From Nitrospira sp. (GTDB lineage Bacteria > Nitrospirota > Nitrospiria > Nitrospirales > Nitrospiraceae): a stretch of DNA of 64,000 nucleotides. The stretch is taken from the NCBI GenBank assembly GCA_030123625.1, contig CP126121.1:4194179-4258178 (forward strand), written 5' to 3'. The translations under genes and the position numbers were made by a program. The notes beneath the pieces were generated by a model. It worked only from the letters and a program-made list of their open reading frames with translations. It made no database searches and was not told where the DNA came from. How positions within the stretch are numbered: position 1 is the stretch's first letter; each line of letters begins with the position of its first letter. Below are positions 46,383-51,664 of this stretch, piece after piece.

Positions 46383-46471
46383 CTTAGAGGCGAAGAGTAA
46401 CAACTTTTACCAGGCCCATCCGTTGCCTGTCGGAACAGGCGTTTACCCGAGCAGTCCGTTGAGCCTCTAAG
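46383..46471. other. Nested inverted repeats at the lpxD 3' end
   Basis: CTTAGAGGC (46383-46391) pairs exactly with GCCTCTAAG (46463-46471). Inside it GCCTGT-CGGA-ACAGGC (46425-46440) forms a tetraloop hairpin. The right arm includes the lpxD stop codon. The element sits between two convergent genes and could be a two-way terminator or a structured RNA. Confidence 0.45.
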
Positions 46472-47612
46472 CTCCGCGAGAACGCCGCTGGCGGACTTTT
46501 TTATCAGCCTGCGAGATCTTCCTAGAACGAGCTGCGGTTGATCGGGACACCCGACTCGACGTCTTTGTTAATTCTGTTTCGAGTGTCGCCACGCGCTGTT
46601 CTAAATTGCGGACCAGTTCTTTCATTTCAGGAAGCTGGAAAATACCTCCCTGGATTCGCAGAGCTTTTTCACGCGGCATTGCCGGAATGCCGCCTACCAC
46701 TTGATTGGATTCAATACTCCGATTGACTCCGGCTTTGGCTGCGATCATGACCTGATCTCCAATGGTGAGATGATCAGCAAGCCCGGCCTGGCCCCCGATC
46801 ATGACATGATGACCGATGGTTGTGCTGCCGGCGATGCCGACCTGCGCAACGAGGATGCAGTGCTCTCCCACTATGACATTGTGGGCAATCTGGACGAGAT
46901 TGTCGACTTTGGTGCCCTGCTTGACCAAGGTCAGACCGAACGTCGCGCGGTCGACCGTCACATTGGCTCCCAGTTCAACGTCGTCTTCAATGACAACGCC
47001 GCCGAGTTGCGGAATCTTATGATGGCGGCCTTGATGCTGCACGTATCCGAACCCGTCGGCTCCGATGACGGTCCCACTGTGCACGATCACCCGCGCACCA
47101 AGTGAACAGCCTTCGCGAACGACGACATTGGGATACAGAACGGAATCGTCCCCGATCCTGGAGTCCGATCCCACAAAGACCCCCGGATAGAGCGTGACAC
47201 GATCGCCGATCATCACGCGGTCACCCAAGGTGACGAAAGGCCAGATGGAAGGATCGGTTCCGATCCGCACATCGGCGCCTTGCATCACATGTTCGGCAAT
47301 GCCCCGCGGAGCCTGCGGACGAACAAAAAATGTCTGCGCGACACGCGCGAAGGCCAACATCGGATTGTCCACGACAATTTGCGGCACAGCGAGATCAGCC
47401 AAATGCCGATGGACCAGTAGCGCTGCTACGCGAAGAGCGGCCGCCGCCTTCGACATTTTGTCATTGGCGATGAACGATAACGCGTTTGGATCGGCTTCGC
47501 CGAGAGTCGTTAAGCCGGAGATCGGAGTTCGGCTGTCGCCGTGAATCGTCCCTCCGACAACCTCATGGATTTGAGCCAATGTGATCGGAGAAGGCAGTTG
47601 AGGCTTCTTCAT
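46467..47612 (-). CDS. lpxD: UDP-3-O-(3-hydroxyacyl)glucosamine N-acyltransferase
   Basis: The 381-residue protein has the LpxD uridine-binding N-domain (ISGLTTLGEADPNALSFIAN) and a left-handed beta helix of hexapeptide repeats. The catalytic-histidine region QIAHNVIVGEH follows, then a C-terminal helix (MKELVRNLEQRVATLETEL). It adds the second acyl chain in lipid A synthesis, using acyl-ACP. The last 35 residues are strongly basic (ending DKKVRQRRSRGA), beyond the usual end of the family. Its ATG overlaps the stop of the acyl carrier protein gene. Confidence 0.95.
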   Translation of the reverse strand: MKKPQLPSPITLAQIHEVVGGTIHGDSRTPISGLTTLGEADPNALSFIANDKMSKAAAALRVAALLVHRHLADLAVPQIVVDNPMLAFARVAQTFFVRPQAPRGIAEHVMQGADVRIGTDPSIWPFVTLGDRVMIGDRVTLYPGVFVGSDSRIGDDSVLYPNVVVREGCSLGARVIVHSGTVIGADGFGYVQHQGRHHKIPQLGGVVIEDDVELGANVTVDRATFGLTLVKQGTKVDNLVQIAHNVIVGEHCILVAQVGIAGSTTIGHHVMIGGQAGLADHLTIGDQVMIAAKAGVNRSIESNQVVGGIPAMPREKALRIQGGIFQLPEMKELVRNLEQRVATLETELTKTSSRVSRSTAARSRKISQADKKVRQRRSRGA

Positions 47613-48064
47613 CGGGACGCGACTTTCTTCTTCCCGGATGTCACGGCGGATGCCTTCTTCGGCTTTCTTGCGGAGGCAGGTTTTGCTGAAGCCGTCTTCT
47701 TGGTAGCCGGAGACTTGGCCGAACCTGCCTTGGTCGTGGTGGACTTGGCTGATTTCGATTTGCTTGCAGCAGTTGCGGATTTGGCCGGTTCAGGCTTGGA
47801 TTCAGCTTTAGGCTCAGCAAGCCGCCGCTGGACATAGGCAGCGACGGTACCGACGGTGCTCAACCCCGGAAGGTCTTGATCAGGAATTTGGAGTTTGAAT
47901 CGTTCCTCGATCTCGAACAGCAGTTCAATGATGGCCACCGAGTCGAGGCCGAGATCATCACGGAGATGATGAGACTCGGTAATCGACGCAGGATCTCGCT
48001 TGAGATAGCTGGCCAAAGCCTGAATGATTTTAGAGGTAATCGCGGGATCGATCGGTTCAGTCAT
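47609..48064 (-). CDS. Acyl carrier protein with a lysine/alanine-rich tail
   Basis: From the ATG at 48064 (GAAGGAG eight bases upstream) the product is 151 residues. Residues 1-80 are an acyl carrier domain with the phosphopantetheine serine Ser42 in LGLDSVAIIE. Residues 84-151 are nearly all Lys, Ala, Ser, Thr and Pro, like a histone H1 tail (for example KSATAASKSKSAKS). Ordinary ACPs are acidic and about 80 residues long, so the tail more than cancels the normal charge. It lies between fabF and lpxD, so it may supply a special acyl chain to lipid A. A longer frame starts twelve codons upstream without a ribosome site. Confidence 0.85.
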   Translation of the reverse strand: MTEPIDPAITSKIIQALASYLKRDPASITESHHLRDDLGLDSVAIIELLFEIEERFKLQIPDQDLPGLSTVGTVAAYVQRRLAEPKAESKPEPAKSATAASKSKSAKSTTTKAGSAKSPATKKTASAKPASARKPKKASAVTSGKKKVASR

Positions 48065-48142
48065 TATGGATACTCCTTCAAGTGGAATGAGGCTTTTCAC
48101 TCATGAATTTGGCCAGGATCCTCGACATCGTTTAATCATTTC

Positions 48143-49399
48143 TTATGCCACAAACTTTTTAAAGACGACCGTGGCATTGTTGCTGCCAAATCCGAATGCG
48201 TTCAAGAGGGCGTACCGCACCTTTCGTTCTTGGACGGCACGTCGGATCCCATCCAAACGACAGGCTGGGTCCGGTTCCTCGTAGTTCGCTGTGGGATGGA
48301 TTTGCCCGGTATGGATCGAAAGGGTCGTTGCCACGGCGCCGATCGCCCCAGCCGCCCCCAAGGTATGACCGATGAGTGACTTCGTAGCATTCACGGCCAT
48401 TTTGTCCGCACGATTCTTAAAAAGACCTCTGATCGCTTTGGTCTCGACGGCATCGCCGATCGTCGTGGAAGTCGCATGGGCATTGATGTAGTCGACTTGA
48501 TCCGGCCCGATGCCTGCAGAGCCGAGACCGATTTTCATGGTCGTGGAAATTTCCTGACCATCCTCCTGAGGAATGACCATGTGATAGGCTTCGCTGGTGG
48601 CGGCATATCCGGCGAGCTCGGCATAAACTCTCGCTTTCCGCTTCTTGGCATGCGCCCATGATTCCACGATTAATGTGGCAGCACCCTCGCCCATGACGAA
48701 TCCATCGCGACGTCGGTCGAAGGGACGTGAGGCTCGCTCAGGAGCATCGTTAAACTCGCTGGAGAGGGCGCGCAAGGAACAGAACCCCGCAAAAACCAAC
48801 GGCGTAATGCTCGCGTCGGCTCCGACGACGATAATGACGTCGGCCTGGCCGCTGCGGATACATTGCAGGGCTTGGCCAAGAGCATGGGCACTGGAGGAGC
48901 AGGCCGTCGAGATCGTGAGATTCGGTCCTTTGGCGCCGTGTGCCATCGCGACGATGCCCGAAGCGGAATTCAACGTGATCGTGGGAATGAAATTGGGATG
49001 TACGCGATGCGGTCGTTGAGTCTTAAAGAGTTGTGTGATCTCACGCTCGCCCATGACCATCCCACCCATGCCGGCTCCGACAATGACGCCGACGCGGTGG
49101 GGAGCTTCCTTGGCCATACTCAGATCGGCATCGGCGAGCGCTTCTTTCGTCGAAACCAAGGCGAATTGCGCGTAACGATCCACACGACTCGCTTGCGTGG
49201 TCGGCAAGTACTGTTCCGGTGAGAAATTATGAACTTGCCCGGCAACGCGTGAACGATAGCCGGACATAGGAAACCATCCTAGGGAAGGGATCGCGGTAAC
49301 TCCAGAGCGACCTGTGAGGGCCGCCTTCCAAAATTCGCTGACGCCGATCCCGATGGGGGATACTACTCCAAGACCGGTAATGACCACGCGCGAGGCCAT
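48143..49399 (-). CDS. fabF: 3-Oxoacyl-ACP synthase II-type enzyme
   Basis: The 418-residue condensing enzyme has the nucleophile Cys167 in STACSSSAHALGQ and the two histidines in NAHATSTTIGDAVE and KSLIGHTLGAAGA. It extends acyl-ACP chains with malonyl-ACP. It is followed after 78 bases by the tailed ACP gene, so the two may work as a pair. Another fabF for bulk fatty acid synthesis may exist elsewhere in the genome. Confidence 0.92.
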   Translation of the reverse strand: MASRVVITGLGVVSPIGIGVSEFWKAALTGRSGVTAIPSLGWFPMSGYRSRVAGQVHNFSPEQYLPTTQASRVDRYAQFALVSTKEALADADLSMAKEAPHRVGVIVGAGMGGMVMGEREITQLFKTQRPHRVHPNFIPTITLNSASGIVAMAHGAKGPNLTISTACSSSAHALGQALQCIRSGQADVIIVVGADASITPLVFAGFCSLRALSSEFNDAPERASRPFDRRRDGFVMGEGAATLIVESWAHAKKRKARVYAELAGYAATSEAYHMVIPQEDGQEISTTMKIGLGSAGIGPDQVDYINAHATSTTIGDAVETKAIRGLFKNRADKMAVNATKSLIGHTLGAAGAIGAVATTLSIHTGQIHPTANYEEPDPACRLDGIRRAVQERKVRYALLNAFGFGSNNATVVFKKFVA

Positions 49400-49476: not shown

Positions 49477-50568
49477 TCAATGCCTGACTTTTAACAACAG
49501 ATAGAGGCCGAAGCTAAGAAACAGCGCATTGGCCATCCAACCGGCCAACATGGGAGCCAAGGCTCCTCCTCGCCCGAGTGCAATGGCGACGGAGTGTGTC
49601 GTCCAGTAGCAGAATCCGATGATGAACGCTTGTCCGATACCCGCGGCCATGCTTCCCCCCCGGACTCCGCTTCGCCGCAAACTCAACGCAATTCCGACGA
49701 GCACCATCACGACCGTCACTAATGGGAATGCGACACGGCCGTAGTAGTCCGTCAGCAGACGAGCGAACGAGAAACCTTCGTGCCGAAAACGCTCGAGGTA
49801 ATTTCGGATTTCCCGAAACGTCATGGTCTCCGAGTTCCCCACGAGCGAAGAGGAGAAATCATCGGGAATCAACTGGATGTTGATCGTCTGCTCCGTGAAC
49901 AAAGCCAACTCAACGGTATCATCCGATTGGAATCGGCGATGATTTCCGTTCAGCAGGATCCAGCCTTCAGGAGTATAGCGGGCTTCAGCCGCTTCCGTAA
50001 TCCGATGGAGTTTAAACGGCGGACGAAAATAAAAGATTCGTACGCCTCGAAGGACCTTGCCTGCGACATCGATCTCATTGACTTCCATCAGGCCGTCGGC
50101 GCTGATACGGACCCATGGCTGGGTGGCTTTGACGGTGACCGGTGTCGGTCTTTGCTCGATCTGGACGGCACGGACTTCTTCGGCCTTCTCTGAGGCGAGC
50201 GGGATGACGGTCGAGCTGAAGAGGAAGAGAATCATGGACACGGCGCCGGCAAACAGGAGAAACGGCGAGGTCATCCACAACAAGCTGATCCCGCAGCTGC
50301 GCATAGCGGTGATTTCATTGCTGCGCATGAATAAACCGAGCGTCAGCAAGGTCGCCACCAAGATCGCGAACGGAGCGACTTGGAACGAAATAGAGGGAAT
50401 CTTCAACGCGAAGTACGTGAGGATGGGAACGATTCCCGATTCATAGCGCAAGAATCGGCGCACTTTCTCAAAAAAATCGATCACGAGATAGATGGTCACC
50501 AAGCCGGAAAAGCACATGCCGAAAATTTTGGAGTATTCACGAAGGATGTACCGGAATAGGATCGTCAT
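49477..50568 (-). CDS. lptG: LPS export permease LptG
   Basis: The 363-residue protein of the YjgP/YjgQ family has three membrane helices at each end and a beta-jellyroll periplasmic domain between them. It begins ILFRYILREYSKIF and has RSNEITAMRSCGISL, the coupling helix region for the LptB ATPase. With LptF and LptB it extracts LPS from the inner membrane. It starts four bases after the lptF stop. Confidence 0.88.
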   Translation of the reverse strand: MTILFRYILREYSKIFGMCFSGLVTIYLVIDFFEKVRRFLRYESGIVPILTYFALKIPSISFQVAPFAILVATLLTLGLFMRSNEITAMRSCGISLLWMTSPFLLFAGAVSMILFLFSSTVIPLASEKAEEVRAVQIEQRPTPVTVKATQPWVRISADGLMEVNEIDVAGKVLRGVRIFYFRPPFKLHRITEAAEARYTPEGWILLNGNHRRFQSDDTVELALFTEQTINIQLIPDDFSSSLVGNSETMTFREIRNYLERFRHEGFSFARLLTDYYGRVAFPLVTVVMVLVGIALSLRRSGVRGGSMAAGIGQAFIIGFCYWTTHSVAIALGRGGALAPMLAGWMANALFLSFGLYLLLKVRH

Positions 50569-50572
50569 GATG

Positions 50573-51664
50573 CTATTGCTTGCTCATCCGCCAGAATAAA
50601 ACGATGGTGATGACGACGAAGATAATATTGGGCAACCAAGCTCCCCAAAAAGGATGAAGGACCAATGCCGTCACCAAAAAGTCGCACCCCACATTCAGGA
50701 TATAAAACGCGATGATGATGCCCACGCCGACGGCAAACCCGCCCACACGTCCGGATCGTTTCGAGACAATGCCGACCGGCACGCCGAGCAGACAGAAAAC
50801 GAGCGAAGCGGTCGGAAAGGCCAAGTCTTTATAGTATTCCATTAGACGGCGAAGAGAGCCGGCATCCTTGCCGCCGGACTCGGCCAGCCGGGCCATGATC
50901 TGCTCATAGGACGGGCGCTCTTCGGAGGCTGAATAGCTGCTGAGGTTCAGATCGATCTTGAGGTCGTAACTGGCGAACGTAATCTGCCGATACTGATCGT
51001 CTCGGCTCGGTCGGCTATGAATCACGCCATTTACCAGCTGGAGCGCGACTTGCGCATGGGCGGTATCCATAAAGACGTGATATTGCTCCGCCACGATGAC
51101 GCGAGGTTCATCGGGCAAACGTTCATCCGAGATGAAGATACCCTCGGCCGAACGGCCCGGCTCTCCCTCCGGAACATAGATCGTCATGCGCGGAATTGGC
51201 TCATTGAATGTGCCCCGTTCCAAAGCCAGCACAAGCTGATCTTTGAGCAGATTGAGAGCCACCTTCTTGAGATTCAATGAACTCCATGGCTGCCCCCATT
51301 GTGACAAGACCAGGGTCAGCATAAAGACGCACACCGAAAAGAGGAGTACCGGCTGCGACAGGCGGAACAGGCTGAGCCCAGTTGCGCGCATAGCGACCAG
51401 TTCCTTGTCAAAGGACAGCCGGCCGAATGCCGTAATCGACGCGATCAGCCCTGCGATCGGAAGCGTGAGCACGAGACCCGAGGGGAGCAGCATAGCGATC
51501 ACTTTGAGAATTGCCCAGAACCCAACTCCTTTGGACACCAGCAGCTCGACAAGACGCAAGAGCTCCCTGGTCAGCATAACAAAGCAGAGCGCGCCGAGGC
51601 TGAGACCAAACGGAGAGAGAAGTTCCGTGAAAATGTAGCGATCGAGCAGTGTTCGTAAGATCAC
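50573..51664 (-). CDS. lptF: LPS export permease LptF
   Basis: The 363-residue paralogue of LptG has the same helix-jellyroll-helix plan. The N-terminus (LLDRYIFTELLSPFGLSLGALCFVMLTRELLRLVELLV) and the FGRLSFDKELVAMRATGLSL coupling segment fit LptF. It is first in a minus-strand run lptF-lptG-fabF-acp-lpxD devoted to lipid A and LPS. Confidence 0.88.
   Translation of the reverse strand: MILRTLLDRYIFTELLSPFGLSLGALCFVMLTRELLRLVELLVSKGVGFWAILKVIAMLLPSGLVLTLPIAGLIASITAFGRLSFDKELVAMRATGLSLFRLSQPVLLFSVCVFMLTLVLSQWGQPWSSLNLKKVALNLLKDQLVLALERGTFNEPIPRMTIYVPEGEPGRSAEGIFISDERLPDEPRVIVAEQYHVFMDTAHAQVALQLVNGVIHSRPSRDDQYRQITFASYDLKIDLNLSSYSASEERPSYEQIMARLAESGGKDAGSLRRLMEYYKDLAFPTASLVFCLLGVPVGIVSKRSGRVGGFAVGVGIIIAFYILNVGCDFLVTALVLHPFWGAWLPNIIFVVITIVLFWRMSKQ

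Follow-up and report, generated by a model that had tools for sequence, protein, structure and literature searches.

Acyl carrier proteins are viewed as small, acidic and soluble proteins that are recognised through basic patches on their partners. What is an acyl carrier with a long and strongly basic tail doing in a lipid A operon of Nitrospira, the main nitrite oxidisers of waste-water treatment and of many soils? The question arose from a first-pass annotation of a 64,000-nt stretch of a Nitrospira genome (the window), which pointed to an intact acyl carrier domain at positions 47609-48064 followed by about 68 residues of Lys, Ala, Ser, Thr and Pro. We refer to this protein as ACP2.

The ACP2 gene and its cassette

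The coordinates of the gene (47609..48064; 151 aa plus stop) were correct and its strand, which had not been given, is the minus strand: the start codon is the ATG at 48064, a Shine-Dalgarno-like GAAGGAG can be read upstream of it (48073-48079, minus strand), and the plus-strand frame is interrupted by a stop. The open reading frame, Pfam, AlphaFold and PDB fold matches all describe an acyl carrier domain followed by a basic tail. ACP2 displays two features of a type II ACP, namely a match to Pfam PP-binding (PF00550) over the gathering score (52.9 bits against a cut-off of 20.8, E 4.3e-14; residues 12-78, 47831..48031, minus strand) and a DS(L/V/M) serine, Ser42 (47939-47941, minus strand), which is the 4'-phosphopantetheine serine and is a Ser in all the 127 aligned family sequences. 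The carrier domain is therefore intact, as had been claimed. Being small and acidic throughout, a usual rather than strictly defining ACP trait, does not apply to ACP2, since the whole protein has a pI of 9.9 and a net charge of +11, the domain alone having a pI of 4.8 and a net charge of -5. Several NCBIfam ACP models also matched ACP2, all of them under their cut-offs. Judged from its sequence, ACP2 is a second acyl carrier protein in nitrite-oxidising Nitrospira and their relatives, which would be loaded with 4'-phosphopantetheine and acyl chains.

The AlphaFold model of ACP2 showed block-mean pLDDT values of 87-92 across residues 11-80, with helices at residues 7-21, 42-56 and 71-83. Past residue 80 the block means were 46-68, and past residue 83 no regular secondary structure was predicted, as expected for a disordered tail. 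The closest folds in the PDB were those of ordinary ACPs, the top one being the Thermotoga maritima ACP (TM-score on target 0.90).

ACP2 is the fourth gene of a minus-strand operon that reads, 5' to 3', lptF, lptG, fabF2, ACP2 and lpxD, and its four neighbours exceed their NCBIfam cut-offs: lptF (50573..51664; TIGR04407, 230.4 bits, cut-off 230), lptG (49477..50568; TIGR04408, 259.4 bits, cut-off 240), fabF2, encoding the beta-ketoacyl-ACP synthase II paired with ACP2 (48143..49399; TIGR03150, 504.9 bits, cut-off 493.75), and lpxD (46467..47612; TIGR01853, 363.4 bits, cut-off 242.5). The cassette contains no fabG, fabZ or fabI, and ACP2 would therefore depend on the housekeeping reductases and dehydratase. 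The placement of a basic-tailed ACP in a lipid A operon is thus correct, and it is also conserved. Among the named loci (the best 80 from one named-genome scan, with 163 weaker candidates beyond them), fabF and ACP2 were adjacent, in this order and on one strand, in 80 out of 80, and the complete five-gene cassette was found at 74; at each of the other 6, the available piece lacked either lptFG or lpxD alone. All 80 were titled Nitrospira or Nitrospiraceae/Nitrospirae bacteria, save one titled uncultured Nitrosospira (L255). The lpxD ATG overlaps the ACP2 stop as ATGA, an arrangement shared by 47 of the 71 loci of the genus. The idea that the tail is a mere consequence of this overlap was rejected, because the remaining 24 loci keep the tail without it.

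Conservation and selection of the basic tail

The tail corresponds to residues 84-151 (47612..47815, minus strand), in agreement with the length and composition first reported. Its final 63 residues include 18 Lys/Arg and a single Asp/Glu. For comparison, 502 crude gene models, some of them spurious, were called mechanically on 464 kb of this genome. Among them, the net charge of these 63 residues (+17) was tied for the highest (mean 1.6, sd 4.0), and ACP2 was the only protein whose C-terminus contained at least 80% K/R/A/P/S/T; on these crude models, the idea that such tails are common in the proteins of the genome was rejected.

An ACP match was obtained at all of the 130 family loci, and the tail was kept at 125. 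The other five are cut, shifted or decayed and were excluded from tail statistics: L098 stops at a contig end, L096 continues beyond an ambiguous residue, L034 and L069 shift inside the tail, and L143 (genome G083) is decayed. The first-pass annotation had considered that relatives might stop at residue 80, the tail being a frameshift or assembly error here. They do not, and such an error is practically inconceivable given that those 125 tails come from independent assemblies, single-contig genomes included. The complete genomes of Nitrospira moscoviensis and Candidatus Nitrospira defluvii carry the ACP2 gene.

Tail length and charge varied widely, from 16 to 77 residues (median 63) and from +5 to +27 in loci of the genus (n = 71), and from 13 to 37 residues (median 18) and +4 to +12 in those of other genera (n = 54). 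Throughout the 125 loci the tail never held more than 2 acidic residues, and hydrophobic residues amounted to about 0.02 per residue. The 15 ACPs of the sister family (L201-L215) likewise have Lys/Ser/Thr/Pro-rich ends past the domain, some of them short. What is conserved in the tail is composition and charge, not the residue at each position. The ratio of summed dN to summed dS was 0.25 in the tail, compared with 0.05 in the domain, calculated on 41 close sequences (L034, L069 and L008, the last nearly identical to L009, were left out) that formed 306 non-independent pairs. Charge-changing differences in the tail were, per opportunity, one-third as common as charge-conserving ones (dR/dC 0.33). 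In a neutral simulation run to the same identity, starting from the tail of the window itself instead of an ancestor, the mean net charge was 6.8-12.9, compared with the 16-21 observed in 13 homologues; the excess had P <= 0.01 in 10 of the 13, the largest P being 0.07. Scarcity of acidic residues was weaker evidence when taken alone (P <= 0.05 in 3 of 13). As judged by these comparisons, the charge of the tail is preserved while its sequence has drifted.

At locus L034 (genome G018; the same as named locus L267), about 27 kb of a single contig separate ACP2 from lpxD and the ACP2 frame is altered within the tail, with the appearance of a large insertion in the tail-coding DNA.

LpxD also ends in a basic tail (residues 346-381; 46470..46577, minus strand). 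In the window its last 30 residues have a net charge of +10, among the highest of the 502 gene models, and the LpxD C-terminus carries +4 to +10 in all 74 readable named loci. Across the order, the basic LpxD tail does not follow the cassette: of 11 LpxD proteins from ACP2-less genomes, 6 have it, and it is weak in all 4 sister-family LpxD proteins from genomes with ACP2. Nor are basic tails a pathway-wide rule, as LpxA and LpxC of this genome have none.

FabF2 and ACP2 as a probable pair

The neighbouring fabF2, which the first-pass annotation did not mention, changes the picture to that of a dedicated synthase-carrier pair, as suggested by matched docking residues and by shared gain and loss. 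The genome contains two full FabF-type synthases, one beside the housekeeping AcpP (FabF1) and one in the cassette; a third match is weak and covers 49 positions. Folds and catalytic residues are common to both pairs. They differ in that AcpP has 77 aa, a net charge of -16 and no tail, and FabF1, with its KKxxKK docking patch, has a predicted pI of 6.2 (net -4), compared with 9.4 (net +9) for FabF2.

FabF2 scores over the TIGR03150 cut-off and has the Cys-His-His triad of a FabF, the active-site Cys and both His being present in all 86 ungapped rows of an alignment of 88. It lacks the GFGG gating loop, which reads GFGS in all 87 ungapped rows of the 88, and part of the basic patch of region 1. 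In addition, FabF2 reads HPNF where FabF1 has SPFF. The GFGS and HPNF motifs could possibly reflect a change of gating or substrate range.

According to PMC7138838, E. coli FabF contacts AcpP through Lys65/Arg68/Lys69, which face Glu13/Gln14/Asp35/Asp38, and through Arg127/Lys128/Arg206, which face Glu47/Glu48/Glu53/Asp56. These residue numbers were assigned by motif alignment to the housekeeping FabF1 and AcpP, which retain the standard docking residues, or Lys for Arg, with Asp at the Asp38 position. At the Arg68 position of FabF2, no listed row has a basic residue: 86 of the 88 carry Ser, Asn, Asp, Glu or Gly, and L233 carries Ala. At the Lys65 position the window has Thr and the four sister-family rows listed have Lys, and Arg occupies the Lys69 position in 87 out of 87 ungapped rows. 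On the carrier side, counted on 127 ACP2 sequences (L096, L098 and L143 excluded), the Asp38 position is Ala in 123 and the Glu53 position Gln in 124; the region 2 positions Glu47, Glu48 and Asp56 are acidic in all. These changes on both partners suggest that FabF2 and ACP2 share a co-altered, private interface.

FabF2 was found in 152 of the 188 genomes of the order (E <= 1e-136) and ACP2, counted by hand, in 151, their presence or absence being concordant in 185 (also a hand count). FabF2 occurred without ACP2 in G112, where the 4 kb downstream contain neither ACP2 nor lpxD, and in G154, whose FabF2 match is weaker. Among the matches listed in 197 genomes of the phylum, none outside the order had E < 1e-28; those outside had E > 1e-20 and scores like those of housekeeping AcpP.

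lpxD was present in 178 of the 188 genomes, 28 of which lacked ACP2, indicating that LpxD is independent of the pair, which argues for the pair adding a special acyl chain. Two of these 28 (G070 and G142) are uninformative because the contig ends at lpxD. In G197, lptF-lptG are followed by lpxD with nothing in between, and in G083, one of the 28, a decayed ACP, without FabF2, stands between intact lptFG and lpxD. In the latter genome (1.7 Mb; L239, L220) a fabF-like start runs into the broken ACP2, so that in this reduced genome the pair appears to decay together. In G191 (L367), the third discordant genome, fabF2 is in fragments, ACP2 with a short tail and lpxD still being open; this genome is possibly an intermediate towards the pair-less arrangement of G197. 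Finally, none of LpxD, FabF2 and ACP2 was found in G123 (1.8 Mb, 99% complete); in this member of the family, lipid A may have been lost completely.

Possible roles of the pair and of the tail

Mycobacterial AcpM, also a type II ACP, has a long extension at its C-terminus, which is not known to be lysine-rich. ACP2 scored 49.6 bits against the AcpM model NF040636, with a cut-off of 146; the 115-residue chain 1klp is presumably mycobacterial AcpM. The fold matches of ACP2 included the ACP chains in 4ihf and 4ihh, complexes of lipid A production in which the enzyme is, we assume, E. coli LpxD bound to AcpP. The proposal for ACP2 is similar, in that an ACP hands an acyl chain to LpxD; in contrast to those complexes, where the carrier is the housekeeping AcpP, Nitrospira has a dedicated carrier encoded against lpxD. 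By analogy, the ACP2 system would work like AcpXL of the Rhizobiales, the closest in principle, yet it is no member of that system, because its cassette falls outside the cluster definition and its score is far under the cut-off of NF005079 (PRK06508; 26.1 bits, cut-off 83), which we take to be the AcpXL model. The chain typical of AcpXL is a very long (omega-1)-hydroxy one. The rhizobial cluster described in PMC11901934, acpXL-fabZXL-fabF2XL-fabF1XL-adh-lpxXL, serves the very long chain fatty acid of lipid A, and its last gene encodes a late acyltransferase. Both systems combine a dedicated ACP and a FabF-type synthase outside the housekeeping set with an encoded lipid A acyltransferase; measured against the cluster in that paper (fabZXL, two fabFXL, a dehydrogenase and lpxXL), the Nitrospira cassette differs in that it has a single FabF and neither FabZ nor LpxXL, and in that its carrier bears a basic tail. 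We found no description of the ACP2 tail or cassette in the searchable open-licence literature, and the available portion of PMC3087551 mentions the phylum once, with nothing on the ACP2 gene.

ACP2 is probably part of a private route that supplies one lipid A fatty acid. FabF2 would elongate an acyl chain on ACP2 in a private step, and LpxD, the product of the adjoining gene, would receive the specialised chain, whose nature we infer rather than observe, as the one that lipid A carries in amide linkage. The disordered polybasic C-terminus would act as a leash keeping ACP2 on an anionic surface, probably the inner-membrane leaflet, where it would raise the local concentration of the carrier, of FabF2, with its high predicted pI, and of the often basic-tailed LpxD. 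The positive charge shared by the tail, FabF2 and LpxD suggests a common anionic surface, for which the inner membrane would be the natural candidate, given that the operon serves lipid A. With hardly any hydrophobic residues and no amphipathic helix in the AlphaFold model, any contact of the tail with the membrane would be purely electrostatic. The parts of this proposal differ in strength: FabF2-ACP2 as a private pair is well supported by comparison and likely, LpxD is somewhat favoured as the acceptor of its acyl chain, and the tail as a membrane anchor is a tentative and fairly doubtful element. The entire reading, with private FabF2-ACP2 elongation feeding LpxD and the tail as a polybasic membrane leash, has in our opinion slightly less than an even chance. 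Rather unlikely is a stricter form of it, where FabF2 would elongate solely on ACP2 through the re-cut interface, the ACP2 polycation would hold the chain at the inner membrane beside LpxD, and amide-linked and ester-linked chains would come from separate carriers.

The occurrence across the order of a carrier whose disordered tail is strongly basic, together with a synthase missing part of the standard patch, suggests that charge can address carriers to a place or a pathway. It provides Nitrospira with a lipid A feature that can be tested, and engineers with a candidate orthogonal carrier-synthase pair. In the stricter form of the reading, the surface-localised line would be a case of an acyl carrier whose position is set by charge.

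Membranes, LPS precursors, nucleic acid and LpxD had been put forward at the outset as partners of the tail. All remain options among which sequence does not allow a choice, although LpxD as the main partner has become less likely, being basic-tailed too in this genome and in most relatives. Instead of a membrane anchor, the tail could be a docking arm making fuzzy electrostatic contact with a protein partner, such as LpxD, the cytoplasmic parts of LptF/LptG or another enzyme. The linkage of the cassette to lptF, lptG and lpxD favours this, as do the matches of the ACP2 model to structures titled AcpM bound to transporter MmpL5 and AcpM2 bound to EmbA-EmbB, which provide a precedent for carriers docking on inner-membrane proteins. 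We nevertheless consider it unlikely, since LpxD and FabF2 of the operon are basic themselves and the tail lacks position-by-position conservation.

Less probable again is that the tail folds back in cis and covers the acidic face of ACP2, keeping housekeeping synthase enzymes away from it and thereby insulating the pair. The opposite charges of domain and whole protein would permit such shielding and the docking residues of the pair are already altered, but there is less to shield in a domain of -5 than in an AcpP of -16, and the tail is predicted at low confidence and without structure.

The tail might also be a by-product, either a cheap and tolerated solubility or low-complexity extension or DNA that preserves the overlap with lpxD, as its fast sequence drift and its range from 13 to 77 residues would allow. 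The dN/dS of 0.25, the charge retained against neutral drift, the tails kept at genus loci without the ATGA overlap and the lack of a tail in related ACPs that do not adjoin lpxD (L217-L219, three genomes) all speak against it and leave it with little probability. Binding of nucleic acid, which would give the carrier a second, regulatory role and recalls the composition of linker-histone (H1-like) tails, is improbable in a genomic context that is wholly lipid A and LPS export, with no DNA-binding domain among the reported family matches.

At three loci (L370, L371 and L372, in G140, G132 and G138), tail-less ACP relatives adjoin, by sequence reading, an alpha/beta-hydrolase-like gene, with no adjoining lpxD, and in G132 aminotransferase-like and phosphatase-like genes are found nearby. 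From these gene neighbourhoods, the tail-less relatives of the three genomes would seem to belong to a separate small pathway.
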